Positions 5,625-64,000 of a stretch of DNA of 64,000 bases are shown here, one piece after another. The translations under genes and the position numbers were made by a program. Under the pieces are notes generated by a model. The model had not been told where the DNA came from, ran no database searches, and saw only the letters and a program-made list of their open reading frames with translations. The stretch covers positions 1,674,001 to 1,738,000 of the forward strand of contig CP134492.1 of NCBI GenBank assembly GCA_031761875.1, read 5' to 3'. This stretch comes from Bacillaceae bacterium IKA-2 (lineage in GTDB: Bacteria > Bacillota > Bacilli > Bacillales > Anaerobacillaceae). Each line of letters starts with the position of its first letter. Positions within the stretch are counted from its first letter, which is position 1.

Positions 5625-6569
5625 ATGCAAAAGAAGTCATTCTACATCGTAGGGAACATTCTTATTTTCGTATGTATGATATTACTAGTCTCCTGCAGCT
5701 CTAAAACAAAAATATTAGAAGAAATACCGACCAATACTTCGGATCTGCCAACGATAACTATTGGATCTAAACTGTTTACAGAACAGTATATTTTAATGAC
5801 GATGACATCGTTACTTTTACGAGATAATAGCTATAAAGTCAATGAAATACGTTTTTTAGATAGTCCTACTATCCGTAACGCGATTGAACAACAAGTAATT
5901 GATATATATTGGGAATATACGAGTACAGCTAGGATTATCTTTCATAAGCAACCGGTAATCTATGACTTTGACGAAGTATATAATGCGGTGAAGGAATATG
6001 ATGAAATCGATAATTTAATTTGGCTTGAAAGAAGTGACTTTAATAGCAGCTGGGGAGTAATTGTAAGGAATTTGTTTGCCGATAAACATCAATTGGTGAC
6101 GATTAGTGACTTGATAGGTTATATGAAGGAAAATGATGCTCCATTAAAGTTTGCAACAAATGATGAATTTCTAATTCGAGAGGATGGGCTAGGTCATTTA
6201 CAACAAGTGTATGATTTATCTTTAAATGATCATCAAGTACTTCCAGTAGATACGAGCTTATTGACACTTGCCGTAAAAGAGGGTAGAGTAGGCGTTTCAA
6301 TTGGAATGATTTCAGACAGTCGGATTAGTGAATACGACTTAATTGTACTCCATGATGATCAACAAGCCTTTCCGTCGTATCACGCAACACCAGTCGCTAC
6401 TCAGGAATTAGTAGAGGAACATCCTACTGTAAAAATACTACTAAATCAACTCTCTAAAAGTATTACACATCAAGATATGATCGAGCTAAATTATCAAGTA
6501 GATGTACTCCAAAATGATGTAATAAAAGTTGCAAAAGCATTTCTCATTGAGAAGGGTTTATTAAATTAA
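5625..6569 (+). CDS. OpuAC/ProX-type glycine betaine/choline-binding lipoprotein, no cognate permease
   Basis: The protein starts with a lipoprotein signal peptide ending in the lipobox LLVSC. It continues with the hallmark of type II osmoprotectant-binding proteins: GSKLFTEQYIL, then AIEQQVIDIYWEYTSTA. Family members bind glycine betaine, choline, carnitine or proline betaine. I chose ATG 5625 because AAGGTGG lies five bases upstream; a GTG three codons earlier overlaps that site. The gene starts ten bases after the regulator stop and is followed by two hairpins. No permease or ATPase gene lies nearby, so it may be a ligand-presenting partner of the Cache kinase, or it may feed a transporter encoded elsewhere. 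The first is inference. Confidence 0.88.
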   Translation: MQKKSFYIVGNILIFVCMILLVSCSSKTKILEEIPTNTSDLPTITIGSKLFTEQYILMTMTSLLLRDNSYKVNEIRFLDSPTIRNAIEQQVIDIYWEYTSTARIIFHKQPVIYDFDEVYNAVKEYDEIDNLIWLERSDFNSSWGVIVRNLFADKHQLVTISDLIGYMKENDAPLKFATNDEFLIREDGLGHLQQVYDLSLNDHQVLPVDTSLLTLAVKEGRVGVSIGMISDSRISEYDLIVLHDDQQAFPSYHATPVATQELVEEHPTVKILLNQLSKSITHQDMIELNYQVDVLQNDVIKVAKAFLIEKGLLN

Positions 6570-6607
6570 ATTTATAACCGAGCATATACTAAAAATGAAT
6601 GTAATTA

Positions 6608-6633
6608 GAAGACCAGTTGAAAAATTGGTCTTC
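6608..6633 (+). terminator. Hairpin after the binding-protein gene
   Basis: GAAGACCAGTT...AATTGGTCTTC forms a near-perfect stem 39 bases after the stop codon, followed by ATTTT. It probably terminates the kinase-regulator-binding protein transcript. Confidence 0.7.
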
Positions 6634-6650
6634 ATTTTCCTGTTCCTGAA

Positions 6651-6690
6651 AAAAACATGGGCACTCTTTTGAGAGAGCCCATGTTTTTTT
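6651..6690 (+). terminator. Second terminator with T-run
   Basis: ACATGGGC and GCCCATGT form an 8-bp stem around a loop containing CTC/GAG pairs, followed by seven T residues. It backs up the hairpin at 6608 and isolates the lyase operon from upstream transcription. Confidence 0.85.
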
Positions 6691-6793
6691 ATTTAAGTTG
6701 GTTCAATTAATTGTAGGTATTTTATTCATCTTTATAACTAAATTTTTTTTGAATTGCTTGAATGTTAAGAATAAGTGAAAAATTAACCTAGAT

Positions 6794-6833
6794 TGTAGAA
6801 ATTATCTACAGTTAAGTGAAGAAAATTTCTACA
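6794..6833. promoter_or_regulatory. Tandem 17-bp dyad operators (candidate NtrC-type enhancer sites)
   Basis: TGTAGAAATTATCTACA (6794-6810) and TGAAGAAAATTTCTACA (6817-6833) agree at 14 of 17 positions, and the first has perfect 6-bp arms. Their centres are 23 bp apart, so both lie on about the same face of the helix. They are about 195 bp upstream of the lyase start. This fits paired sites for a dimeric activator such as the regulator at 4250, but the protein-site link is inferred. I found no convincing GG-N10-GC sigma-54 promoter between here and 7027. Confidence 0.6.
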
Positions 6834-6902
6834 AACCTGATAGAAAAAAAGGTGCTAACATACATTTAAATCATTCTTTTGAATTTTTAAAAATATATTG
6901 AG

Positions 6903-6918
6903 TGAAAGCGCTTTAAAC
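6903..6918. promoter_or_regulatory. Candidate cre box upstream of the lyase operon
   Basis: TGAAAGCGCTTTAAACA carries the AAAGCGCTTT core, matching the CcpA consensus at most positions. It lies between the paired operators and the lyase start, a position suited to carbon catabolite repression. Confidence 0.55.
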
Positions 6919-7026
6919 AGAAAGGGGGGTAAATATAAAAATTACTGAATTGAAATTAAACAACAATTATTATCGTTCTCTTAATGTATTATTCGAGATT
7001 AATTGAAAAGAGAAGAAGGTGTTGGA

Positions 7027-8373
7027 TTGAAAGAGATAAGGATGGAAGAAGACTCATTCGGATCGATGGCACTTCCAGTAGATGCACTGTACGGAATTAA
7101 TACGTATAGAGCAATTGAAAATCTATCATTCTCAGATAAAATTTTACAAGGTTACCCCGAATATATTTCAGCTCTAGTTGTTGTCAAAAAAGCTGCGGCA
7201 AAAGCAAACATGGAAGCTATGGTGTTATCAGAAAAAATCGGTAATGCTATTATATCAGCTTGTGATGAGCTTTTAGCAGGAGGGTATCACCAACATTTCC
7301 TAATAGATATGTTACATGGTGGCGGTGGAATTGCTACAAATATGAACATCAATGAAGTGATTTCTAATCTTACAAATAAAAAGTTAGGTAGTGCGATTGG
7401 TGATTATTCACCCGTACATCCAATTGACCATGTAAATGCATCACAGTCAACATCTGATGTGTGTCATACCGCAAGTAGAATAGCATTAATTAAAAGTTTT
7501 AAGCCATTGCAGAATGAAATAGAAGCTGTTATTGGTAGCTTGGCTGAAAAAATAGCGGATTTTGGAGAGATTACAACCATTTCTCGAACTTGCTTACAAG
7601 ACGCAATGCGCGTAAAGCTAGGTGAAACGTTTAGCGGGTATGAGGCTATGTTGAAGCGGCGTCTTGACTCAGTAAATGAAGCAGTAGAAAAGCTCCATCA
7701 GATAAACCTTGGTGGTACTGTTATCGGTTCGGGCATTGGTGCACCAAAGGAATATCGTGATGTTGTCGTTCAAAAGCTTTGCGAGGCTTCTAATTTACGA
7801 CTTTATCATCGTGAAAATTTGTTTGATGCAGCACAAAATATTGATGACATTGCAAACGTTTCAACTCAATTACGTCTATTAGCTTCAGGTCTAATCAAAT
7901 TAGCAAAAGATTTACGACTTCTTTCATCAGGTCCTGAGGCCGGTTTTTCAGAGATAGTACTACCATCAGTTCAGGCGGGGTCGTCATTTTTCCCTGGTAA
8001 AGTAAATCCGGTTATACCAGAAACATTAATTCAATGTTGTTTTCAAATCATTGGCATTGATCAAACTGTCCAAGCGGCACTTGAGCATGGAGAGTTAAAT
8101 TTAAACGTTTTTGAAGGTGCAGCAGTTACAAATAGTTTTGATGCCATGAATATGCTTGAAAAAGCACTTAGGACCTTTCGGAAAAATTGTCTGAATGGGA
8201 TAAAAGCAAATCTAGAAAGATGTGAGGAACTGTCAAACAGTTATATTCCACTAGTTGTGGAATTGAAGGAAATACTTGGATATTCAGTTACCTCCTCAAT
8301 GATTAAAGAAAAAGGTAAAGAAGGAATAAAAAAATATTTTAATGGAGGCGTTGAAATTGACAAAAATAAATGA
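7027..8373 (+). CDS. Aspartase/fumarase-superfamily lyase
   Basis: About 448 residues matching class II fumarase/aspartate ammonia-lyase architecture. The N-terminus resembles aspartase (DSFGSMALPVDALYGINTYRAIEN); a substrate-binding block VNASQSTSDV and the signature loop GSSFFPGKVNPVIPE (usually GSSIMPGKVNP) are present. Known members eliminate ammonia, amines or water from carboxylic acids to give an alkene. The two-residue change in the signature loop and the neighbours suggest a substrate other than aspartate, perhaps a betaine losing an amine. The start is taken as TTG 7027 after AAGGTG; TTG 7003 and ATG 7042 are alternatives. Its last codons overlap the aldehyde dehydrogenase start, so the genes are coupled. 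Confidence 0.85.
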   Translation: MKEIRMEEDSFGSMALPVDALYGINTYRAIENLSFSDKILQGYPEYISALVVVKKAAAKANMEAMVLSEKIGNAIISACDELLAGGYHQHFLIDMLHGGGGIATNMNINEVISNLTNKKLGSAIGDYSPVHPIDHVNASQSTSDVCHTASRIALIKSFKPLQNEIEAVIGSLAEKIADFGEITTISRTCLQDAMRVKLGETFSGYEAMLKRRLDSVNEAVEKLHQINLGGTVIGSGIGAPKEYRDVVVQKLCEASNLRLYHRENLFDAAQNIDDIANVSTQLRLLASGLIKLAKDLRLLSSGPEAGFSEIVLPSVQAGSSFFPGKVNPVIPETLIQCCFQIIGIDQTVQAALEHGELNLNVFEGAAVTNSFDAMNMLEKALRTFRKNCLNGIKANLERCEELSNSYIPLVVELKEILGYSVTSSMIKEKGKEGIKKYFNGGVEIDKNK

Positions 8374-33360: not shown

Positions 33361-33912
33361 ATGAAACAGCGTCCATTTGGAAGTACTGGTCATTTCGTAT
33401 CTGAAATTGGATTAGGTACGTGGCAACTTGGCAATGAAAAAGATTGGGGTGCAATGACTGAAATTGAAGCGATAAAGATTGTTGATAAAGCTTTGGATTT
33501 AGGATGTAATTTCTTCGATACAGCTCCAAATTATGGATTAGGAAAAAGTGAGGAAATCATCGGTAAGGCATTAAGAGGGAAGAGAGATAAGGTGATTATA
33601 AGTAGTAAATTTGGTCATCACGATAATGGCGTGATTAACTTTGATCCAAATGAGATAGAAAAATCAATTGATAAAAGTTTAAAACGACTTCAAACTGACT
33701 ATCTTGATTCCGTTCTTTTGCATAATCCACCATTTGAAATCTTGAATGGCGATAGCCCTCATTTTGAGGTGCTTGAGAAACTGAAATGTGAAGGTAAAAT
33801 CGGAGCTTATGGCGCCTCTGTTGATTCAAGTAAAGAGATGTGTGAGTTAATCGAGACAACAAACAGTCAAGTAATTGAAGTCATGTTTAATATTTTTCAT
33901 CAAGAGACAGCT
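33361..33912 (+). pseudogene. Aldo/keto reductase, N-terminal part, split by IS21
   Basis: The 184 codons before the insertion encode the start of an aldo/keto reductase: FGSTGHFVSEIGLGTWQLG, then CNFFDTAPNYGLGKSEEIIG with the catalytic Asp and Tyr, and KVIISSKFGHH with Lys. The start ATG has GGAGGA ten bases upstream. At 33912 an IS21-type element enters; the frame runs on into the element and stops at 34017. Removing the element and one CAGCT copy joins this part in frame to 36510-36893, giving a 311-residue protein of normal length. Confidence 0.92.
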
Positions 33913-33948
33913 TGTGACCGTCAAGTAGAAATGAACACTTTTCGCCAA

Positions 33949-34716
33949 TTAACTTTGAACACTTTCTCCACCAAAAATGGAAGATCGGTGCTTCATTCGA
34001 TAACTGTCATTATCTAAGTGAATAACTTCAGCTCGGTGAATGATCCTATCTAAAATGGCTGCTGTAATACTTGAATCGCCCATCAACTCGCCCCAATCAC
34101 TTGGGGCCTTATTTGATGTGAGTATAATAGAAGCATTATTATATAAATAGTTTATTAAATGGAAAAATAGGTTGGCTTCACGTTGATCCATTGCCATAAA
34201 CATAAGATCATCAATAATCACTAAATTTGAATTTCTAATTCTGCTCATTCTAGTCTGTGACTTTCGAGTGATTTCTTCTGTTTTTAACGTATGGATTAAA
34301 TCACCCATAGAAATAAACGAAACTTTATATCCGCGGTTGATTGCCTCAATCCCTAATCCTATTGCTAATAAAGTTTTCCCTGCACCTGGCGGTCCCAATA
34401 AAATAATGTTGTACAGCTGCTCTACCCATGTTAGCTCTTTTAATTGATTAAACTGTTTTTTACTTAATGATCTCTGTTCATCAAGATTAAAGTCGATCAT
34501 CGTTTTATGATACGGAAATGTAGCCCATTTTAAGCGTTTTTCTGTTTGTTTTTCTTCCCGGCGCTTTTGTTCAAATGTTAATATCGTTAGTAGAAATGAT
34601 GTATAGGAAACTTCGTTTGATTCTGCTTCTTTAATTAGTCTTGTTATACTAGTAGATGTTTCCGATAATCGGAGTGTCTTTAATAACTCCTGCACTTGTG
34701 CAAACTGACTCATCAA
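33949..34716 (-). CDS. istB: IS21 helper ATPase IstB
   Basis: 255 residues. AAA+ motifs: Walker A LGPPGAGKTLLAIGLG, Walker B LVIIDDLMFM, and sensor IILTSNKAPSDWGE. The N-terminus (LLKTLRLSETSTSITRLIKE) is typical of IstB. It assembles on target DNA and directs the IstA transposase. Its ATG overlaps the istA stop by four bases, the usual IS21 arrangement. Full length, so likely functional. Confidence 0.95.
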   Translation of the reverse strand: MMSQFAQVQELLKTLRLSETSTSITRLIKEAESNEVSYTSFLLTILTFEQKRREEKQTEKRLKWATFPYHKTMIDFNLDEQRSLSKKQFNQLKELTWVEQLYNIILLGPPGAGKTLLAIGLGIEAINRGYKVSFISMGDLIHTLKTEEITRKSQTRMSRIRNSNLVIIDDLMFMAMDQREANLFFHLINYLYNNASIILTSNKAPSDWGELMGDSSITAAILDRIIHRAEVIHLDNDSYRMKHRSSIFGGESVQS

Positions 34717-36311
34717 ACATCACCTGCCAATACTGACAAATAATCATTTATATCTCTGGTTGCTGGTTTCGTATTCACTAACGATTGGTTGTTTTCATGA
34801 AGTATTTTAGTTGTTTCATCGTTATCAGTTGGAGGTGTAACAATCATTTGTCGTTGTCGGTCAAGGTACTGAACCATATCGATAAAATCTGTTGCACAAA
34901 ATAGTTTCCGGTTAACACATTCTTTTAAAGCTTCATTAATAATTGACTGCTCATGACATTTTATTTCTTTTGATATCAGCTGGAGTTGATCCCTAATGTA
35001 TCGCGGAAACGCTGATTTAATCGTTTCTAGAAAAGAGAGTGCCATATCTGTATTTTCGAATTTTTCTGCTACTGACTGTATATAAGCTGTAACCCCTTTT
35101 GTTCGATCACGCGTATGTTGTCGATCTTGAATTAATTCTCCTTTTGCAACAGACAGTTTATGTTTCGCAAATATTTCCCCTGTGTCAACTTCAACGATCA
35201 TTAAATAGGCATCGTCGACTTCAGATATTGCTACTTCTGGATACTTTTCAAATGTTCCGAGAGGAACTGAGTAGCGATTAGATTTATACCAAATCGTATT
35301 GTCCTTTCGAACCGTCCTTGTTATAATAGATTGGAGTTTAGTTTGACTACCTGCAGGTAAACTGCCAGTAGCCGTTGAGACTGGTCGTAAGTGTTGCTTT
35401 TCAAGGAGAAACACTTCGCACGGTCTTTTTTTTGTTGTGTTATGAATCTTATAATTACCCGTACGCTTCAGCCACGCTAACCCATCTTCATTCCATTTAT
35501 CAATATTTTGAAATATCCGATGTTTGGAAAAGTTCACTTTCACAAAACCTACCATATTTTCAATTTTTCCCTTTGTCTCTGGATCTGCTTTACGACAAAC
35601 CCAAATCGTTAACTTCCGATCTTCTTTGTACGCTTGAAACTCTTTTGTTAGAATTAAATCACCTCCATTTTCGCTAACGACAAGAAGCGCATCTTGATCA
35701 TAAACGAGTTCCCTAGGAATTCCAGCAAAATATTGAAAGGCATTTTCATGGGTACGTATAACATCTTTGGTGGTGAAAGGCCGATCCACCCATTCTTTGT
35801 ATTTGTATCTAGAGTGGGATAGAACAAAAGCTATGAAATAAAGTCTGACCGTTTTTCCCACGATTGTCTTTTGAACTGTTTGTCCAAAATCTACTTGAAT
35901 TTGTTCGCCCATCGGTAACTCTGCCACGGCTTCATAATCACGCATAGTTGTTTCTTTAGAAATATCATATGATAGTCGTAACTCTCTTACATAGGCTCTT
36001 ACTGTACTTTCAGAAACATCTTTTACCTGTTTCTTTTCTTGTAGCCAATCATAAACCTGGGCAGCTGTCATATCAGGATGTGAATACAACCACGAAAGGA
36101 TCAATTCTTTGAATGGGTCTAGCTTTTTTCTTCTACTTTCAAGTTGAACCACCCATTCACTCATGTCACTTGGCGTACTTTTTAAATAGCGATAAACCGT
36201 TGTTCTTGAAACCCCTAACTTTCCAGCTACTTTCGATTTACTGAATCCTTGCTTTAGTAATTGCTGAATTTCCATATACATTTGCCACTTATCCACCTTT
36301 TTCCTCCACAC
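34713..36311 (-). CDS. istA: IS21 transposase IstA
   Basis: 532 residues. An N-terminal helix-turn-helix (LLKQGFSKSKVAGKLGVSRT), then an rve/DDE integrase core with Asp in GEQIQVDFGQT, Asp in RELVYDQDAL and Glu in ADPETKGKIENMVGFVK, and a C-terminal beta-barrel region (SNRYSVPLGTFEKYPEVAIS). It catalyses strand transfer with IstB. The frame is intact throughout. Confidence 0.95.
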   Translation of the reverse strand: MWRKKVDKWQMYMEIQQLLKQGFSKSKVAGKLGVSRTTVYRYLKSTPSDMSEWVVQLESRRKKLDPFKELILSWLYSHPDMTAAQVYDWLQEKKQVKDVSESTVRAYVRELRLSYDISKETTMRDYEAVAELPMGEQIQVDFGQTVQKTIVGKTVRLYFIAFVLSHSRYKYKEWVDRPFTTKDVIRTHENAFQYFAGIPRELVYDQDALLVVSENGGDLILTKEFQAYKEDRKLTIWVCRKADPETKGKIENMVGFVKVNFSKHRIFQNIDKWNEDGLAWLKRTGNYKIHNTTKKRPCEVFLLEKQHLRPVSTATGSLPAGSQTKLQSIITRTVRKDNTIWYKSNRYSVPLGTFEKYPEVAISEVDDAYLMIVEVDTGEIFAKHKLSVAKGELIQDRQHTRDRTKGVTAYIQSVAEKFENTDMALSFLETIKSAFPRYIRDQLQLISKEIKCHEQSIINEALKECVNRKLFCATDFIDMVQYLDRQRQMIVTPPTDNDETTKILHENNQSLVNTKPATRDINDYLSVLAGDV

Positions 36312-54712: not shown

Positions 54713-56212
54713 TCATAAAATACCCGAAAATAGTCGGGTAAATGATTCCTTTATTCGTATCGCAAGTCCTCTTTTATTAAATTCAATAGGATCAATTCTC
54801 AGGCACTCGTTTAGGTCTTCCTGATAATGTGTAACCAGATCTTGGATCGAATCAGTCTCTGTTAAAAACAAATTGACTTCAAAGTTCAAATGAAAACTGC
54901 GCATATCCATATTGGCTGTCCCAATCGATGCCATGTTGCCATCGACGATAATGATTTTTTTATGTAAAAACCCTTTTTGGTAGGAATAGATTTCGATTCC
55001 GAAGCCCAATAGTTCAGGGAAATAGGACTGAGCTGCATATTGAGTGAGAAAACCGTCATTTGTTTCAGGGACCATCAGACGAACTTGAATTCCTTTGCGG
55101 GCCGCCACCCTGAGTGCTGTCTGGATCGCTTTATCTGGAATAAAGTATGGTGTAGCGATCCAAATTGATTTGGTTGCACAGGAGATCAAGGCATAATAAT
55201 GATCTTTCATGCCCTCCGTTTCCGGACCAGTTGGAACGACATGAACCAAGCCGTTTCCAGAGACCGATATCGGCTTGATATAGCGATCATTGTCAAACAA
55301 TTTTTCCCCGCACACATAGCTCCAATCCAATAAAAAAACGGCATGTAATGATTGGACTGCCTCCCCTTCAAGAACGACATGGGTATCGCACCAAAATCCA
55401 ATCTTATCATCTTCACCAAGGTATTCCACCCCAACGTTTAGTCCGCCAACAAATCCAATTTCTCCGTCAATGACAATGATTTTTCGATGATTACGAAAGT
55501 TAAACTTTTGATTAATAAAACCTTTTTTTATTGGTGAAAAAAAGTGGATGATGATACCGGCCTTCTCCATTTTATTAATTTCGGAATCTGTAAGTGAGAA
55601 ACTTCCAACCGCATCGAACATAAACCGTACTTCTATCCCTGCTTGTACTTTATCGATTAAGATGTCAATTAGCTCTTTTCCTAATCGGTCATAGCGGAAA
55701 ATATAATATTCCAAATGGATAAAGTCTTTCGCTTCAATTAATCGGCGTTTAATTTCCTGAAATGTTTCCTGCCCATTTTTTAAAATTTGTGTTTTGGTAT
55801 GCATGTCTATATTAGTTAGGGGTACCTGCTCCAAATAGCGAGCAAAACCAAGCTGGTGTTCATTAAGCTTAGAAACATCGGGCGTCTCTTTTCGCTTACT
55901 CAGTGTTTCGAATAGCAAGTGATCGCTGCTGCGCTTACTTTTAAAGATATAACTTTTTATTAATAATTGACCAGAATACACATAGAAGATATATCCTAAT
56001 ACAGGTAAGAGTACCAAAATGTAAATCCATAAAAGCGTGTTTTGAGACGTGCGATTTTGGAGCATTAAGTAGATAATCGTCTTCAAAATTATCAGCGCAT
56101 AAAGAACGATACAGAAAGATTTCCAAAGTACAGGGATTTCTGTATAAAAAACTAAATATACCGAATAAATCATTATGATGACAAAGATAAATTCTATTCT
56201 TCCTTTATACAT
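54713..56212 (-). CDS. cls: Cardiolipin synthase (phospholipase D family)
   Basis: 499 residues. Two N-terminal membrane helices (about 5-52, with a third weak segment near 60-82), then two phospholipase D HxK motifs: NHRKIIVIDGEIGFVGGLNV and LHKKIIIVDGNMASIGTANM. The N-terminal NTLLWIYILVLLPVLGYIFY is typical of Bacillus ClsA. It condenses two phosphatidylglycerol molecules into cardiolipin. The gene is single. Confidence 0.96.
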   Translation of the reverse strand: MYKGRIEFIFVIIMIYSVYLVFYTEIPVLWKSFCIVLYALIILKTIIYLMLQNRTSQNTLLWIYILVLLPVLGYIFYVYSGQLLIKSYIFKSKRSSDHLLFETLSKRKETPDVSKLNEHQLGFARYLEQVPLTNIDMHTKTQILKNGQETFQEIKRRLIEAKDFIHLEYYIFRYDRLGKELIDILIDKVQAGIEVRFMFDAVGSFSLTDSEINKMEKAGIIIHFFSPIKKGFINQKFNFRNHRKIIVIDGEIGFVGGLNVGVEYLGEDDKIGFWCDTHVVLEGEAVQSLHAVFLLDWSYVCGEKLFDNDRYIKPISVSGNGLVHVVPTGPETEGMKDHYYALISCATKSIWIATPYFIPDKAIQTALRVAARKGIQVRLMVPETNDGFLTQYAAQSYFPELLGFGIEIYSYQKGFLHKKIIIVDGNMASIGTANMDMRSFHLNFEVNLFLTETDSIQDLVTHYQEDLNECLRIDPIEFNKRGLAIRIKESFTRLFSGIL

Positions 56213-56449
56213 AGCTAGATTCTCCTAATTTCTAAAATGAAATGGCCTTTCCATAAAAGGTTAAGATTAATAAAACCGAGATGCCAAACATGTTGCTTTG
56301 TTGAATTAAATCTATTTGAATTCCACTTAAGTATTCTAACTTTAAATAACAGATTAGGGAAATGTATGATACCTGAAAGGTTTAAAAAATTTCCTGATGG
56401 GGAAATGATTAACTAGTAACAGGAGCAATTACAAGGAGGAATAAACAAA

Positions 56450-56644
56450 ATGAGTAATGATAAATTAACAGGAAAAGTGGATAAAGTGAAAGGTAATGTA
56501 AAAGAGCAGTGGGGTAAAACAACAAAAAATCAATCATTAGAACAGGAAGGGAAAAATGATCAACTAAAAGGTAAGGTAAAGATAGGAATCGGGAAAATAA
56601 AGGAAACGATCAATAAAATTAGTAAGAAAACAAAGCATAAATAA
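56450..56644 (+). CDS. CsbD family stress protein
   Basis: 64 residues, strongly basic, with the CsbD pattern LTGKVDKVKGNVKEQWGKTT repeated in shorter form (DQLKGKVKIGIGKIKETINK). Family members are induced by the general stress sigma factor SigB; function unknown. GGAGGA lies eight bases before the ATG. I did not identify a convincing SigB promoter upstream. Confidence 0.9.
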   Translation: MSNDKLTGKVDKVKGNVKEQWGKTTKNQSLEQEGKNDQLKGKVKIGIGKIKETINKISKKTKHK

Positions 56645-57005
56645 TTGTGACGTAGTGGAAACGAAAAGTATAAAGATACAATTAAGTAAAAAAAGGGTAC
56701 TTTAGATGGTGCGAAGCAATGTCTCAACCCGAAAAACTGTTTCATTGAGATGTTTGACTGACTATTATTAAAATAATCTACTAGCTGTCACTATAACTGC
56801 TAGTAGATTAATAGATATTCTCATAGAAAAATAGAGTTTTTACCGAAAAATCAACGTTACTGACTACTTTTACAAATTAAGATAAAACAAAGCGGTCTTG
56901 ATTCCTCGTTTAAACCTGAGGGATTAATTTGTTTTTCCGATTCGTTAGTGTCTCGTTATCGGGTTCTTTATGACACTTCGATTATACAGATGAAGCGAGA
57001 CTAAT

Positions 57006-57077
57006 TTAAGTTAAATAATTCCAAATAAAACTTATTACTACGATTGCACCGATAACCATTAATATAGTTCGTATCAT
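57006..57077 (-). CDS. Very small single-helix membrane protein (23 aa)
   Basis: On the minus strand an AAGGAG lies nine bases before an ATG that opens a 23-codon frame encoding MIRTILMVIGAIVVISFIWN and three more residues. This is one hydrophobic helix with a positive N-terminal end. Such proteins are easily missed and common in Bacillus membranes and spore coats. Support is limited to the ribosome site and the amphipathic design. The rest of 56645-57470 holds no other evident gene. Confidence 0.5.
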   Translation of the reverse strand: MIRTILMVIGAIVVISFIWNYLT

Positions 57078-57474
57078 TCTTATCAGCTCCTTTTATTACT
57101 ATCATTGTGATAATTTCCTTGATTATATATTTTTTCTACATGGGTGAACTTCTAATTTTACTGTATTTTGTCGATTTACTGATATAAAGCTTATCATACT
57201 TTCCCAGAGAGTCTATACACAAACAACTTCAGATGCAAAATCTTATAATATAGTTCACTATAACACCCCACAAGAAGAGATTAAAGGAAGATTAGAATAA
57301 TAAGTATGTTAATAATTGGTAAAATATGATCATATTGGTATGAGATTAAAACTGCTATCCCTATAAGGGCAGCTACACTTTATGAGAACTCGTTCTAAAA
57401 GACCAAAAAAGACTATGGTTTTGGGAAAAGTTATATTTTCCTTACGCATCCTACAAATAGAGAGGTGGTACATC

Positions 57475-58599
57475 TTGGAGGGGAATAAATTCATTGGCTA
57501 TGTAGTTCGAGTCTTTATAGTTGTTGTTTTGGTTGTTTTAGGGTTAATGGCCTTATATTATTCCTTTAATTTAACGTATCCTTTTTTAATTGCCTTCGCC
57601 TTAGCGTTCATCATTAATCCTTTAGTAAATTTTTTGGAGAAAAAGGGAAAGCTTCCGCGCAGTCTATCTGTTTTGCTAAGTATATTATTCTTATTTGGTG
57701 TTGTAGGTAGTATTATCACATTTATTATTTTAAAGATAATTGATAGGTTTAATTATTTTTCGCAAAAATTACCCAATTATATTGAAATGTTTTTTTTGCA
57801 ACTGCAATCTTTTTTTATCAACTCGATTCTTCCCTTTTGGGAGACTGTGTTAGGTTTGTTCAATGAACTCGACGAACCTCAAAAAAAGGCTATTCAAGAT
57901 AATACACAACAAATAGGACTGCAATTCGGTACTATTCTTGGTAGGTTTGGTGAAACAGTAGCTAACATTTTGTCACAGTTTGTAGGGGCACTGCCAATAA
58001 CATTAACAGCTTTAGTTTTTATCATCATTGCCTTATTTTTTATTAGTAAGGATTGGTATAAGTTAGGAAAGCTTGCACGAAAACGAATTCCTAATACCTT
58101 TTTTGAAATAAGTTCCGTTATTAGTAAAGACTTAAAATCGAAATTAGTAGGATATTTGTTTGCCCAATTAATTCTAATTAGTATGACAGCGACTATTACA
58201 TTTATAGGTTTACTAATTCTTCGAGTTGAACAGCCTTTTACAATTGCACTTATTGCTGGTATGGTCGATATAGTACCGTATTTAGGTACAGGTATAATAT
58301 TTGTTCCGTGGCTTATTTATTGTTTTATTACGGGCAATTATTTTCTTGGTATAGGTTTAAGCGTTTTATATACAGTAACAATTATTCAAAGACAGTTAGC
58401 CGAACCAAAGGTATTATCTTCAAAACTTGGTTTAAATCCACTTGCGATGCTAATTTCATTATTTGTCGGAATTCAGCTTTTCGGAGTTATCGGGCTTATG
58501 ATTGGACCAGTATTACTTGTAATCTTAGTATCGTTATATCATGCCGGTGTATTTAGTAATATATGGATGTTTATTAAAGCTGAAAAAGCATCGATTTAA
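57475..58599 (+). CDS. AI-2E family permease (YtvI/YubA-like)
   Basis: About 374 residues from TTG 57475, after GAGGTGG; the upstream part of the frame lacks membrane character. Eight hydrophobic segments, a soluble helical insert (about 105-175), and family blocks LIAFALAFIINPLVNFLEKK, GMVDIVPYLGTGIIFVPWLI and GLNPLAMLISLFVGIQLFGV then GLMIGPVLLVIL are present. Members export autoinducer-2, ions or unknown solutes; the length fits sporulation protein YtvI. No sporulation promoter was recognised. Confidence 0.9.
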   Translation: MEGNKFIGYVVRVFIVVVLVVLGLMALYYSFNLTYPFLIAFALAFIINPLVNFLEKKGKLPRSLSVLLSILFLFGVVGSIITFIILKIIDRFNYFSQKLPNYIEMFFLQLQSFFINSILPFWETVLGLFNELDEPQKKAIQDNTQQIGLQFGTILGRFGETVANILSQFVGALPITLTALVFIIIALFFISKDWYKLGKLARKRIPNTFFEISSVISKDLKSKLVGYLFAQLILISMTATITFIGLLILRVEQPFTIALIAGMVDIVPYLGTGIIFVPWLIYCFITGNYFLGIGLSVLYTVTIIQRQLAEPKVLSSKLGLNPLAMLISLFVGIQLFGVIGLMIGPVLLVILVSLYHAGVFSNIWMFIKAEKASI

Positions 58600-58617
58600 A
58601 CTTCACTGTGACAACTC

Positions 58618-58998
58618 GGGGACAGGTCCCTTTTCCCCAAAGAATTAAGAAAAAGTAACTGTAACAACCTGAAAAACCTTGTTTCACGAGAATGAAGTGG
58701 ATATAAAATTGTGAAAATGTTAGCAAGGGAAAGCTCTGTGGAGAAAAAATCTGCGGAGCTTTTTTTTGCGTTTTATTAGAGCCGATTGTACGTCGTTTTT
58801 CGAACTTCTGCAACGGGCATACCTGCTAAAGTTTTGTTTTGATTTAAATTATTTTAAGTGATTTTATCTGAAGAGCAGTTACCAAGTTGGAAATAGCTGT
58901 CTCAAATCTATCTGGAATGCCACATCATTAATCTGCCTAGCACAGATTCAGATCCACTTACTTTTGGGAAAAGGGACCTGTCCCCATGTTGTTCTCCC
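58618..58998 (+). repeat. Second REP-like family, complete copy with inverted ends
   Basis: About 380 bp bounded by GGGGACAGGTCCCTTTTCCC and its exact inverse GGGAAAAGGGACCTGTCCCC (58971-58990). It encloses a terminator at 58731-58768 (AGCTC/GAGCT stem then T8) and no reading frame. Ends of this kind are typical of a different Y1-transposase-mobilised family; no cognate transposase gene is in the window. Confidence 0.8.
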
Positions 58999-59155
58999 CA
59001 TGTTGTTCAGCAGTTGGCAAACGAGTAGTGATTTTCATGAGAGATATTAGTATAATATTATGGGGAAGTTTGATATATTTAGTAAGTTCATAAAAGAGAT
59101 ATTAAGATTGTGAAGGATTACACTTAAAATAACCGTAGCAACGAGGTATAAAACG

Positions 59156-60709
59156 ATGAAAAAAACATTACGTTTCTGGATATTACTACTTACTATTTTC
59201 GTTATAATAGGTATTTTATGTAGTACTCTATTCTCAGCTTATCTTGTAACAAAGCAAAATGTAATTAATCAGTCACTTGAGATTAATCGTGTATATTCTG
59301 AAAAACTTGCACAAATAACTGGAGAAGTATTTACATCAATGAAACAGCATTTAGAATCTAGACAGGATGATATTGCGATCGATCTAGATAATGCTGAAAT
59401 GATAGACAAAAAATTAGAGCGATTATTACATAGTAGTCACGATTTTAATTCATTAACTGTGGTTAATAATGAAGGGATTATTCTAAGTACCGCGCCTGAT
59501 TTATCAATCGCGGGAAAAGAACTAACTTCTATAGGTGCCAAAGAATCATTAGAACAAAAAAGAACACTTGTATCAGTTCCTTATACAGCAGTCACAAATC
59601 GACTTATTATCATGGTTTCCACTCCGTTATGGGGAGAAGACAGTGAATATTTAGTTTTTTTAGCTGGTACGATTTATTTAGAAGAAGAAAATATTTTATC
59701 GTCTATACTAGGAAAGCATTTTGCCGAGGACGGATCGTATGTATATGTTGTCGATAATAGTGGTACGTTAATTTATCATCCAGAAATAAACCGAATTGGA
59801 GAAATTGTCGAAAATAATGAAGTGATTGAAAAGTTGAAAACTGGTCAAAATGGGTCTCAGTTTATCACTAATTCAAAGGGGATCGACTTTCTTGCTGGAT
59901 ATACAAACGTTGATTTAAGTCAGTGGGGAGTTGTATCACAAACACCTTATAATGTTGCAATTAGCCCTGTAATAGATATAATTAAAAAAATGTTTTTGTA
60001 CTCTATTCCTTTTGTTACTTTGTTTATTATTATTACAATTTTTTTAACAGAAAAATTGGCATCGCCGCTTCGAAAGTTAGCGCTATGTGCTGCTAATTAT
60101 AATGATAATAGTAAAATGAAGGATATGTTCGTTATTCCTTCATGGTATTTTGAAGCGGAACAATTAACGAAAACGATAAAAGACTTTGCAAATAAACAAG
60201 ATAATAGTATTAATAACTATAAAAATAAGTCTTTAACAGACTCGCTTACAGGGTTAGCTAACCGCAGGTATGTAGAAGATATATTAGAAATCTGGAAGTA
60301 CGACAAAGATGTTTTCTCCCTGATAATTATTGATATTGATTACTTTAAGAAAGTTAACGATCAATTTGGACATCAAACTGGAGATGAAGTACTACTTTTT
60401 TTATCTAATAAAATGAAAGAGTTTGTAAGAAAAGTTGATGTAGTTGCGAGATTTGGCGGAGAAGAATTTGTTATTTTGTTAGTTAATACAAGAGATACTG
60501 AAGCTTTGAGTCTGGCAGAGAGAATTCGTGAAAATGTTAGTAATGCAATTAGTCCTACGGGTGGGAATATTACAATTTCTTTAGGGATAGGCACTTATCA
60601 TAAAAGTGAAGAAATAAAATCATTATTTAAACGCGCAGATGATGCTTTATATCAAGCTAAAAGAGAAGGTCGTAACAAATCAGTGTTGTCTCGACCTTAC
60701 GAAAAATAG
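59156..60709 (+). CDS. Membrane diguanylate cyclase with Cache sensor domain
   Basis: 517 residues. TM1 (about 8-30), an extracellular double-Cache domain (31-280), TM2 (about 281-303), a HAMP-like linker, then a GGDEF domain: DSLTGLANRRYVEDILE, IDIDYFKKVNDQFGHQTGDE and the active-site RFGGEEFVILL. It should make c-di-GMP in response to an external ligand. RxxD is not evident five residues before GGEEF, so product inhibition may be absent. It is transcribed in the same direction as the next two genes. Confidence 0.95.
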   Translation: MKKTLRFWILLLTIFVIIGILCSTLFSAYLVTKQNVINQSLEINRVYSEKLAQITGEVFTSMKQHLESRQDDIAIDLDNAEMIDKKLERLLHSSHDFNSLTVVNNEGIILSTAPDLSIAGKELTSIGAKESLEQKRTLVSVPYTAVTNRLIIMVSTPLWGEDSEYLVFLAGTIYLEEENILSSILGKHFAEDGSYVYVVDNSGTLIYHPEINRIGEIVENNEVIEKLKTGQNGSQFITNSKGIDFLAGYTNVDLSQWGVVSQTPYNVAISPVIDIIKKMFLYSIPFVTLFIIITIFLTEKLASPLRKLALCAANYNDNSKMKDMFVIPSWYFEAEQLTKTIKDFANKQDNSINNYKNKSLTDSLTGLANRRYVEDILEIWKYDKDVFSLIIIDIDYFKKVNDQFGHQTGDEVLLFLSNKMKEFVRKVDVVARFGGEEFVILLVNTRDTEALSLAERIRENVSNAISPTGGNITISLGIGTYHKSEEIKSLFKRADDALYQAKREGRNKSVLSRPYEK

Positions 60710-60894
60710 TTGTTAATAAATGGTTAACGAGAGTCCCTGCTGATTTGCAACACGAATCAACAGGGTATTTGTTATTAGGAATCCTCCGATGTGTTCTAAT
60801 AGATTGATGTTTGTTTGAGAGGAAACTTCTTACAATTAGAGAATTAATAGACTATACTGTGAAGAAGGGCGGTAGCAGTGAGAGGAGACACATT

Positions 60895-61971
60895 ATGAGT
60901 TTATTATTCCAAAATTCAATTGAAAAGATAGATAAACTTGCTCAACTAGCATATGACAGGCTGTTCGAATTAGACCCGAAACTTGAAACGGAATATAACG
61001 ATCGACAGAAAAGATCGATGTATCAAGATATTTTATCAAGTATAGAATATCTTAATTTGGCTATGAAATTTAATGATAACAAAATATTTATTGGCTATGC
61101 AGTGTGGCTTTACCAATCGCTTAGTTATTCGATAAAAAAATTGGGGAACGAGCGCATCAAGGATCAGATGTGTATGCGTTATCAGGTTCTAGAAGAGCTA
61201 ATAGGAGATCATTTATCAGCCGATGAGGCTTCGCAGGCCTATCATCATTTGGATAACGCAATTATGGCTACCGAAAATGAATTTGTTAATTTTCAAATTT
61301 CTTCGCGATTTGAAGCGCCTGAATATCTAAATATTAAAAGAGAATATCTAAGCCTTCTTCTTAAAAATGATGCGAAAGGGGCTTATTATCTGATTGAAAG
61401 ATCTTTTAATTCTGGAGTGAAGTTGGATGATATTTATTTGAAGGTACTTCAAGAGGTCTTGTATGAGCTCGGAAATCTTTGGCATCAAAATATCATTTCG
61501 ATTGATAAAGAGTATTACTGCACATCGACAACACAAATTGTATTGTCCCAATTTTATCCACTTATTTTTAGTCAACCTAAGAACGGATACAAAATCCTCT
61601 CGTGTGCAGTTGGAACATAACTACATGAAATTGGAATTCGGATGGTTTCAGATTTATTTGAATTCCATGGTTGGGATAGTGTGTATTTGGGTGCAGCAGT
61701 TCCAGCAGATGCAATATTAAATGCTATCACTGAGCATAGCCCTCATTTAATTGCCTTGTCAGTTACGATGCCTCAGCATCTTTCTATGTGTTATGAGCTC
61801 GTCAATACGATAAGAAAACAGTTTCCAACTCTTACTATTTCTGTTGGAGGCAGAGCGTTTCAAACTACAGATCAATTATGGAAAAAATGGGATGTCGATA
61901 TATCTACGGAAACAGCTGATCAGTTGGTCGAGTGGGCGAATCTTAATATTGCGAGTAAAGGAGGGATCTAG
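60895..61971 (+). pseudogene. CarH-like cobalamin-binding sensor protein with one in-frame stop
   Basis: Start ATG 60895 follows GAGAGGAG by seven bases. The frame is continuous over 358 codons except for a TAA at 61618-61620 (codon 242). An N-terminal helical region (1-150) precedes a B12 cap domain (LLKNDAKGAYYLIERSF, LYELGNLWHQNIISIDKEYY) and a Rossmann B12-binding domain (LHEIGIRMVSDLFEFHGWDS, VYLGAAVPADAIL, ALSVTMPQHLSMC, ISVGGRAF). The stop replaces the Glu of the E-x-H-x-x-G motif; His244 and Gly247 follow. The cap has W-H and W-x9-E as in CarH, but Tyr207 where CarH has His. There is no MerR DNA-binding domain. The GGDEF gene begins at the next base after its stop. Confidence 0.85.
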
Positions 61972-63015
61972 ATGATTAGTTTTTTGGTACGCGTTGGTAG
62001 ATTAGGTACGATTAAGGAAATTAAATGGTGTAACCCTGCCTATATCATTCCAACTGCTAATGTATCTTTTTCTGAATTAATCGCAGATTCTGATACAGTG
62101 TTGTTGGATCAAATTGTTGAAAGCTGCAATGGTCAGAATTTTTGTCATCATCATTTGCCGTTAAAATTAAAAGAACACAATATAAAAGTATTCTTACACC
62201 TGTTTGTAACTGGCGAAGACATGTTAATTTTAGGAGTCGATCAGCAAGTATCTTACCTTAATAAATCCAGTGATGAATTCAAAGAAATCATTTATAAATT
62301 CATGAGTGTTGTTGGTAAAACTTTCAATGGTGAGGACATGCCGATTTCGGAGAAAGTACTTTTTCAGATTGAAAAAACTCAGGCTCTTAACAATGAATTG
62401 ATTAACACGAAAAGGATGTTAGAAAAAGCAAATGCGCAATTAAATATTTTGAATTTGGATTTAAACAACAAGCTTGAAAAAGATCCCTTGACAGGATTAG
62501 TCAGTAAATACCAGTACAAGACAGAAATTGAGGAGGCTATTTCCAAACACCCTGGGAAGCTAGCTGTTTTTACTTTTATAGATATTGATAATTTTAAAGC
62601 GGTTAATGACAATTATGGACATGCAACAGGAGATAACTATTTAATTGAGTTTGCAGAACGCTTGAAAAGGTTAAGTCCTGAAAATTCCATAATAATGAGA
62701 ATTGGAGGAGATGAATTTGGACTTTTTACTTATGGCTTAGCTCAGGTTGATAAGGAATTTATTAAAATGATATGGGAGGAGCTCAAAACTCATCTGGTAT
62801 CAAATCCGATTGAAGTTGATGGGGTTGATTTAGAAATTAAAATTAGTGCAGGCATGGCGGTATATGGGAGAGATACATATGACATTAATGAACTGATTGA
62901 GCATGCGGACGTTGCAATGTATAAAGCAAAAGACAGTGGAAAAAACAATTTCTGTATTTTTGGAGAGTCTGAAATAAACTCAAAAAAGTCGCAGTTAACT
63001 TATAATGGAAAGTAG
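61972..63015 (+). CDS. Diguanylate cyclase coupled to the cobalamin sensor
   Basis: 347 residues. The N-terminal 150 residues form an uncharacterised sensor-like domain (PAYIIPTANVSFSELIADSD, CHHHLPLKLKEHNIKVFLHL). A coiled coil (about 130-165) then leads to GGDEF: DPLTGLVSKYQYKTEIEEAI, FIDIDNFKAVNDNYGHATGD and active-site MRIGGDEFGLF. It should synthesise c-di-GMP. Its ATG directly abuts the stop of the cobalamin-binding gene, with GGAGG eight to twelve bases upstream inside that gene, so the two are translationally coupled. I infer light- or cobalamin-dependent control of c-di-GMP. Confidence 0.93.
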   Translation: MISFLVRVGRLGTIKEIKWCNPAYIIPTANVSFSELIADSDTVLLDQIVESCNGQNFCHHHLPLKLKEHNIKVFLHLFVTGEDMLILGVDQQVSYLNKSSDEFKEIIYKFMSVVGKTFNGEDMPISEKVLFQIEKTQALNNELINTKRMLEKANAQLNILNLDLNNKLEKDPLTGLVSKYQYKTEIEEAISKHPGKLAVFTFIDIDNFKAVNDNYGHATGDNYLIEFAERLKRLSPENSIIMRIGGDEFGLFTYGLAQVDKEFIKMIWEELKTHLVSNPIEVDGVDLEIKISAGMAVYGRDTYDINELIEHADVAMYKAKDSGKNNFCIFGESEINSKKSQLTYNGK

Positions 63016-63040
63016 TATTTGTTTAAGTGACTGAAATAAT

Positions 63041-63067
63041 AATAACAGTTGATGAACAGCTGTTATT
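63041..63067 (+). terminator. Hairpin after the GGDEF gene
   Basis: AATAACAG/CTGTTATT stem with an 11-base loop, 26 bases after the stop, without a strong T-run. Confidence 0.55.
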
Positions 63068-63100
63068 GGAATTATCTAGAGAGAAAATAATATCATAAAA

Positions 63101-63208
63101 ATGCATCTTGTAGGTGCAGTCATTGTCGAGAATGGAAAATTTTTTTGGCACAAAAGGGGCGAAGTTAGTTGCTTACCTTATCATTTTCACAACACCATTC
63201 TCGTTTAG
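63101..63208 (+). pseudogene. NUDIX hydrolase N-terminal remnant
   Basis: The frame reads MHLVGAVIVENGKFFWHKRG then EVSCLPYHF and stops. VGAVIVENGKFF..KRGE resembles the first strands of MutT/8-oxo-dGTPase proteins. The NUDIX box itself is absent. A relic of about 35 codons. Confidence 0.5.
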
Positions 63209-63342
63209 CTTCTCTTTTACCACCCAGTCATCAAGATTAGATGCAGTAACCGAAACCGAATCTGATTACACATTTAAAGGGTGGTGAAACGGTTTAAGAA
63301 ATAAGTACAGTTAATTATCTGAGTTTGGCTATAAATATTTTT

Positions 63343-64000
63343 TTAGCCTAATGTTACACAATTTTTTCCATTTCCTTTACTTTGAAAAAGTAATCCATCA
63401 ACTCTTTCAAGGGCACCCTGAATGGTATCTTCCTCTTTAAATATGGTCGCTCCAATAGAAATAGTAACAGATAAATTGCTCTCGTTTTTACGAAGTGAAG
63501 AAGCCTCGGTCAGCATTCTAATTTTTTCACAAATATTCAAAAGTTGTTCTTCATTAATGCCGGTTAAAACCGCGACAAACTCCTCGCCCCCCCATCTACC
63601 CACAAGGTCTGAAGATCTTACTACCGATGACATGGTTTTGGCTACAATCTTAAGTACTTCATCACCTGTTAGATGATCAAACTGATTATTAAAATCTCTG
63701 AAATTATCAATATCCATAAAAGCAATACCGAATGGAATACCGAGCATTTTAAATTCATTCATTTTAAAAGATAAAAAATTATTGATATAGTGGCGGTTGG
63801 CGAGCCCCGTCAGCTGATCCTTGAGAGCTAAAACCTTAAGTTCTTCAACCTGTTCAAGCAGCTCGTGCTTTTTAGAATCATCAACAAAAATTTCCACTGC
63901 TCCAAGAATTGTATCACCGTTATAAATAGCAATCGTACGAACCGTAACTGGAACGCGATGCCCGTTTTTGTGATGTAAATAAAGGGAGCCTTCACGCATA
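63343..64000 (-). CDS. PAS-GGDEF diguanylate cyclase, cut by the window edge
   Basis: 218 residues are visible; the N-terminus lies to the right of the window. A PAS-type end (GSLYLHHKNGHRVPVTVRTI then GAVEIFVDDSKKHELLEQVE) leads through a short helix to GGDEF: DQLTGLANRHYINNFLSFKM, AFMDIDNFRDFNNQFDHLTG and active-site RWGGEEFVAVL. It is the third c-di-GMP synthase in 5 kb and is transcribed towards the other two. ATG 63999 is probably internal. Confidence 0.9.
   Translation of the reverse strand, partial: MREGSLYLHHKNGHRVPVTVRTIAIYNGDTILGAVEIFVDDSKKHELLEQVEELKVLALKDQLTGLANRHYINNFLSFKMNEFKMLGIPFGIAFMDIDNFRDFNNQFDHLTGDEVLKIVAKTMSSVVRSSDLVGRWGGEEFVAVLTGINEEQLLNICEKIRMLTEASSLRKNESNLSVTISIGATIFKEEDTIQGALERVDGLLFQSKGNGKNCVTLG

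Follow-up and report, generated by a model that had tools for sequence, protein, structure and literature searches.

We found that positions 60895–63015 of a DNA window from Bacillaceae bacterium IKA-2 hold, with a probability of about 0.75, a two-gene light-signalling module that pairs a photocobilin with an N-terminal globin and its own PAS-GGDEF cyclase, and that the sensor of this copy has been inactivated with loss of light control through B12. The window is the whole stretch of 64,000 nucleotides analyzed (positions 1674001–1738000 of an assembly formed by a single 4.42-Mb contig). This copy most likely belongs to an already known kind of photoreceptor and was broken recently; it does not represent a new class. 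The inactivation rests on an in-frame stop codon, a tyrosine at residue 207, and a modest excess of changes ahead of that codon; the light response, the recency of the damage, and the fate of the cyclase are what we infer.

Sensor gene and its photocobilin descent

The sensor ORF (60895–61620, forward strand) starts with ATG, encodes 241 amino acids, and ends with TAA (61618–61620). A Shine–Dalgarno-like stretch precedes it on the same strand (60880–60889; GAGAGGAGAC), with AGAGGAG just 5′ of the ATG. The TAA is codon 242 and occupies the Glu/Asp position of the motif E/D-x-H-x-x-G, and the same frame is open again from 61621 to the next stop at 61969–61971. With this base composition, 115 codons would stay open by chance with a probability of about 1e-4, and 242 codons with one of about 7e-9. 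In a search of the genome, one PF02310 match spanned the stop with a single TAA inside it (E 2.1e-18). When the parts were compared with Pfam, PF02607 matched the part before the stop (E 1e-7) and PF02310 the part behind it (E 1.9e-17), with no match to a MerR domain, so the CarH-like cobalamin domain lacking MerR that an earlier note had described from the DNA letters was recovered. The four-helix cap (61321–61617, forward strand), delimited by Pfam, alignment, and structure search, reaches up to the stop and carries W196-H197, E206, and Tyr207 in place of His. The open frame behind the stop (61621–61971, forward strand) holds the rest of the Rossmann-type B12-binding domain, in which codon 243 is CTA (Leu), the axial H244 lies two residues after the stop position, and G247 and GG318-319 are kept. 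This part is probably hardly translated. Scans for promoters and terminators gave counts at the shuffle mean.

Relatives were reached through the partner gene. The N-terminal part of the cyclase matched 5 genomes in a 398-genome sample of the phylum, that of the window included, and 3 of the 4 others (L041, L043, and L044) had an intact sensor of 358 or 359 residues directly upstream of the match. A contig scan with the single sensor piece of the window found no relative; a scan with the alignment of these three sensors gave 251 confirmed relatives, of which the best 80 were used. Removal of L092 (frameshift) and L124 (gap of N) left 78 aligned intact sequences. These counts are of rows and not of events, because some rows are nearly identical (L054 and L055 at 98.6%; ten Lachnospiraceae-type rows at 69–94%). 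The nearest relative of the window sensor is 53% identical, a divergence at which silent sites would be saturated and of no use for dating the stop.

Across these 78 sequences from the best 80 of 251, the stop column holds Glu in 70 and Asp in 8, which answers the comparison of orthologues suggested in the earlier note and agrees with its placing of the TAA on the motif Glu. H244, W196, and W71 are invariant in all 78. Position 207 is His in all 78, as that note had read it from CarH, and Tyr in the window. The W...EH motif of the adenosyl pocket is therefore no longer intact here (W196 and E206 are kept, H207 is Tyr), and the E/D-x-H motif is interrupted at its acidic residue, with the codon for the lower axial His behind the stop. 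The exact position of the stop is luck and not itself meaningful, since 142 of the 359 sensor codons (stops included) are one base away from a stop codon.

The earlier note had taken the sensor for a CarH-like protein. The cobalamin part of that claim stood; the identity did not, because the note had missed an N-terminal globin that makes the protein a photocobilin relative. This photoglobin domain, of the phycobiliprotein type, covers about residues 1–142 (60895–61320, forward strand). A profile of 37 such N-terminal domains matched allophycocyanin (E 1.2e-7) and the globin regions of the photocobilins 8j2y, 8j2x, and 8j2w (E 8.4e-6 to 1.2e-5). PF00502 (Phycobilisome) matched 16 of 61 relatives and 12 of 37 of their isolated N-terminal domains. 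The globin part of the window sensor alone gave no Pfam match and was placed through the alignment. The best solved relatives of the window sensor piece were SasPcob structures (8j2x/8j2w, E 5.7e-5), matched via the cap, and the NCBIfam CarH model scored it at 17.5 bits against a cut-off of 400. A structure model of the intact relative L049 (pLDDT 94.5) matched CarH-type B12-domain structures and photocobilins over about 200 columns. The top structural matches span one half of the model, which we take as the cobalamin half and which would be expected with a swapped domain order; the globin assignment thus rests on the sequence profiles.

Asp45 of the window sensor falls on an Asp position of the bilin pocket that is Asp in 73 of the 78 aligned relatives (from the best 80 of 251). 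Its equivalence to SasPcob Asp270 was derived from the alignment of position 45 with a His of AbPcob (8j2y) together with passages of PMC10979010, according to which AbPcob has His where SasPcob has Asp270. The phycobiliprotein cysteine position is Met in the window and in 27 of 28 cyclase-linked relatives. The domain make-up of photocobilins, a globin fused to a cobalamin-binding domain, is thus found in the window with the globin at the N-terminus. Because of this phycobiliprotein-type globin, the sensor, judged by its sequence, is a descendant of photocobilins (receptors for B12 and biliverdin) with an N-terminal globin and not simply of CarH. The bilin partner itself is doubtful, because the genome gave no match to heme oxygenase PF01126; the same search gave a match in 3 of 14 control genomes.

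The known photocobilins (SasPcob, 8J2W/8J2X; AbDPcob/AbPcob, 8J2Y) share with the module a cobalamin domain with a four-helix cap, a phycobiliprotein-like globin, and coupling to a diguanylate cyclase, and the relatives of the window share their E/D-x-H and W...EH motifs. In contrast to SasPcob and AbPcob, whose globin is C-terminal, the window has an N-terminal globin and a cyclase encoded by a separate gene, and its copy carries a stop at the E and a Tyr for the H of EH. Photocobilins with either globin order exist, according to passages of PMC10979010. CarH and LitR, the MerR-type B12 photoreceptors, also combine the cap with a Rossmann cobalamin domain, whereas the window sensor lacks their MerR DNA-binding domain and two separate genes of the genome encode MerR-type B12 proteins. 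Photoglobin, attributed to Schneider et al. 2022, is reportedly a non-heme globin coupled to B12-binding domains in signalling proteins; the window sensor resembles it in both domains, as far as photoglobin is known from citing papers.

Partner cyclase and the conserved gene pair

The cyclase gene (61972–63015, forward strand; 347 residues) begins at the base directly after the old sensor stop, and its Shine–Dalgarno-like GGAGGG (61960–61965, forward strand) lies within the old sensor tail. The open frame on both sides of the TAA and the abutting GGDEF gene are thus as the earlier note had described. Pfam, an alignment with 25 partners, a structure model, and Foldseek together indicate a PAS-like N-terminal domain, a coiled coil, and a GGDEF domain. 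PF00990 was matched with E 3.1e-35 (121.8 bits), and the N-terminal part had no Pfam match. The signature RIGGDEF is intact, the columns invariant across the 26-row family are also kept in the cyclase, and no RxxD I-site was seen in its sequence. The model (pLDDT 86.1, pTM 0.56) had DosP and the PAS-GGDEF-EAL protein PA0861 as its best Foldseek matches. It resembles PAS-GGDEF diguanylate cyclases in its PAS-like sensor fold (by model), coiled coil, and GGDEF domain, but it belongs to a partner-specific subfamily found beside photocobilins and shows no RxxD I-site. Its preserved signature suggests that it is probably still active in making c-di-GMP, no longer under light control through cobalamin. 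Three GGDEF genes lie within about 5 kb (59156–64000 and on to L038:4240), namely a dCache-GGDEF gene, the sensor partner, and an opposite-strand PAS-like-GGDEF gene, and the genome has 23 GGDEF matches.

The downstream gene of each relative was taken as the nearest same-strand ORF, picked by hand in 77 of the 80 loci (L108, L112, and L118 were left out; in L107 a small ORF lies between the sensor and the gene picked). A GGDEF gene follows the sensor in 34 of these 77 loci from the best 80 of 251, which upholds the linkage claimed in the earlier note. Of the 34, 25 entered the cyclase alignment, all with an invariant GDEF core, and formed the 26 rows (alignment A4) with the window; the other 9 were recognized by Pfam among the remaining 52 downstream genes, which also gave matches to EAL (5), the histidine-kinase ATPase (38), and HisKA (36). 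The pairing of a photocobilin with an output gene is common among the relatives.

An intact sensor would bind adenosylcobalamin with His244 as the lower axial ligand and with the adenosyl side capped by Trp196, Glu206, and His207, and its globin domain would probably hold a non-covalently bound bilin. Light would break the Co–C bond and rearrange the sensor dimer, and this rearrangement would change cyclase activity through protein–protein contact. Published work (PMC10979010; also PMC11796333 and PMC10151467) already describes photocobilins and how they control a diguanylate cyclase that is fused to them or added. Passages of PMC10979010 report that light activates the cyclase of AbDPcob more than tenfold and that photocobilins also act on a separate cyclase domain. 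By analogy, the pair of the intact relatives should work between two proteins as AbDPcob does. Of the light- or B12-controlled c-di-GMP switch that had been proposed for this locus, the GGDEF linkage stands, while the idea is not new in view of these passages. Our literature search found no paper joining a B12-binding domain, GGDEF, light, a globin, and a histidine kinase; the original photoglobin paper lay outside that search, and no absence is claimed.

Several relatives have a third module gene for a homologous membrane protein of about 175–207 aa (L049:8071–8607; similar in L050, L052, L058, L059, L069, and L124), which gave no NCBIfam match. BLAST for a remnant of it gave no significant E-value in the window or its downstream stretch, and a search of the window genome, run with no positive control, gave no match. 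A second, independent decay of the module occurs in L042/L047 (G420:C164; 94% complete, 7% contaminated). There, stops and frame changes interrupt the sensor in its N-terminal part, although SELHEMG is kept, and the cyclase has stops and has lost its GGDEF core, with remnants of the membrane-protein gene behind.

When the N-terminal piece was searched across the order, 139 of 397 genomes matched; apart from the match to the window itself, the best had E 6.8e-15 over 92 residues. Among 15 same-order loci read, 12 (L010, L011, L012, L013, L014, L015, L017, L018, L022, L033, L034, and L036) hold a photocobilin split into two genes, with a monooxygenase-like ABM gene (PF03992) in front. A gene judged by eye to be PAS/STAS-like follows in 11 of the 12, and that of L018 matched Pfam STAS at E 0.01, below the cut-off. 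The 122-aa globin-like gene of L015 weakly matched Phycobilisome (E 0.021). The ABM enzyme of the split loci, if heme-degrading, could supply a bilin.

Extent of the damage and competing explanations

In the window, the single-base stop at Glu242 ends the product ahead of the axial His and costs it almost all of the Rossmann domain that binds B12, while Tyr207 alters the adenosyl pocket. Given both changes, the 241-residue product (globin and four-helix cap) should not hold B12, and the cyclase, with its own ribosome site and intact active site, would be made without a B12-binding partner. According to passages of PMC10979010, the corresponding E–H pair of SasPcob belongs to the adenosyl pocket and the dimer interface, which makes Tyr207 the best independent sign of lost function. 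The inactivation suggested in the earlier note is therefore supported as probable.

We measured decay at the columns invariant in 29 near relatives (n = 31; 12 before the stop, 19 behind it; Leu243 not counted). The window departs at 4 of the 12 before the stop (L75S, H95R, M189L, and H207Y) and at none of the 19 behind it, whereas leave-one-out departures of the 29 relatives ranged from 0 to 2. The excess before the stop fades at looser thresholds. At columns conserved in at least 27 of the 29, the window departs at 7 of 32 before the stop and at 2 of 35 behind it (M246I and A316S). At columns conserved to at least 95% in the 29, its 6 departures equal those of the worst relative (L070, 6), and two others have 5. 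At such columns over all 78 relatives (from the best 80 of 251), it has one departure. Additionally, the ratio of identity behind the stop to that before it (C/N) is 1.34, within the 1.10–1.57 of 14 intact relatives. Decay is not clearly stronger behind the stop than before it, which leaves three possibilities: a recent stop, a polymorphic one, or a base error. The sequence pattern would agree with mild relaxation that preceded or accompanied a recent stop, but a base error would look almost the same.

Such a sequencing or assembly error, with the gene intact in the organism and the module working, is unlikely. It would account for the retention of all invariant residues and the normal divergence behind the stop, and for a sensor branch in the tree that is not long, and an MFS transporter about 3 kb downstream that also looks frameshifted could mean base errors. 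However, Tyr207 is a second change, at a position that is His in 78 of 78, and substitution errors are rarer than indel errors in a one-contig genome. Very unlikely is a truncated 241-residue protein that works alone, either as a B12-free bilin sensor of the globin type or as a contact partner of the cyclase. The kept globin domain and bilin-pocket Asp speak for it, as do standalone globin-like genes of about 124 aa in Bacilli of the same order (with weak Pfam support), but the four departures at invariant columns fall within this very product, two in the globin (L75S and H95R) and two in the cap; furthermore, no heme oxygenase was found in the genome and the sensor piece was not found elsewhere in the genus (0 of 6 other species).

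Two further possibilities would bring the sequence behind the stop into use, and we give little credence to either. A restart at the ATG at 61642, where an ORF of 109 aa is open, would yield a second protein, a fragment with the B12 domain, to pair with the truncated sensor; no good ribosome site was seen before this ATG, however, and because it lies behind His244 the lower axial ligand would be lost, which leaves the restart highly improbable. Programmed or leaky read-through of the TAA, as the earlier note had envisaged, would give some full-length sensor from the open and conserved frame, but it is hardly credible. Both release factors recognize TAA, the least leaky of the stop codons. An internal stop is absent from all 78 aligned relatives (from the best 80 of 251), and no Rfam family reached its gathering score within 56000–64000.

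Origin, genome context, and meaning of the module

The sensor piece is thus confined to this species among those of its genus examined, and a search of 376 other genomes of the genus and order gave no match to the N-terminal part of the cyclase. In the sensor tree, the window sequence is sister to Alkalibacter mobilis (support 97/91), with an end branch of 0.48 against a median of 0.52. The pair of A. mobilis is intact (locus L053; sensor at 6001–7077, cyclase at 7074–8096). This placement and the absence from genus and order relatives point to acquisition from an anaerobic Firmicutes-type donor, and we infer that the module was acquired horizontally from such donors. No empty site was found in the same-genus genomes; relatives of the upstream dCache-GGDEF gene occur in G002 and G006, in differing neighbourhoods.

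None of the genome's 7 other B12-domain matches is a photocobilin, and the seventh (L003) is a methionine-synthase-like frame. An adenosyltransferase for adenosylcobalamin (PF01923) is present. A MerR/LitR-like B12 gene lies about 4 kb past the end of the window (L038:8191–12636; G000 1742190–1746635); its motif reads EQHDIP, with Pro replacing the Gly. It is divergent from an FAD amine-oxidase-like gene and from a fused gene with a cyclopropane-synthase-like end, and together these genes resemble a cluster for the response to light. Another CarH-like gene of the MerR type (L006:964–1866; G000 near 1222047) has an intact ETHELG motif. These two MerR-type B12 proteins could still sense light, so loss of the window sensor need not blind the cell.

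At 63038–63154, two short blocks are 82–83% identical to the start region of a NUDIX gene (L038:6224–6646), a decayed partial duplicate. The MFS transporter gene (L038:4793–6079) has its C-terminal part in another frame through an apparent frameshift, which makes it a further damaged gene close to the sensor. At 33361–36311, an aldo/keto-reductase-like gene runs into a two-gene insertion-sequence-like element, which we take to be of the IS21 type.

A broader reading, quite unlikely in our view, is that an unfused photocobilin with its output gene (PAS-GGDEF in anaerobic Firmicutes-, Spirochaetota-, and Mollicutes-type genomes; a histidine kinase elsewhere) is a widespread and spreading two-protein light-signalling cassette, and that the newly arrived window copy is being disarmed at its chromophore but retains the cyclase and perhaps a globin sensor that works free of B12, as a natural switch from B12 and light to another input. 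The preferred reading remains a broken member of a known photoreceptor kind, and the conserved unfused pair of photocobilin and cyclase or kinase is a more useful lead than the window copy; this pair and its decay in L042/L047 are the more interesting observations. Many anaerobes tie the published chromophore pair (B12 and bilin) to c-di-GMP via two neighbouring genes, and these unfused pairs offer compact natural material for experiments on light control in trans. The copy in the window is mainly of note as a natural case of sensor loss, which predicts a cyclase running without B12 light control.
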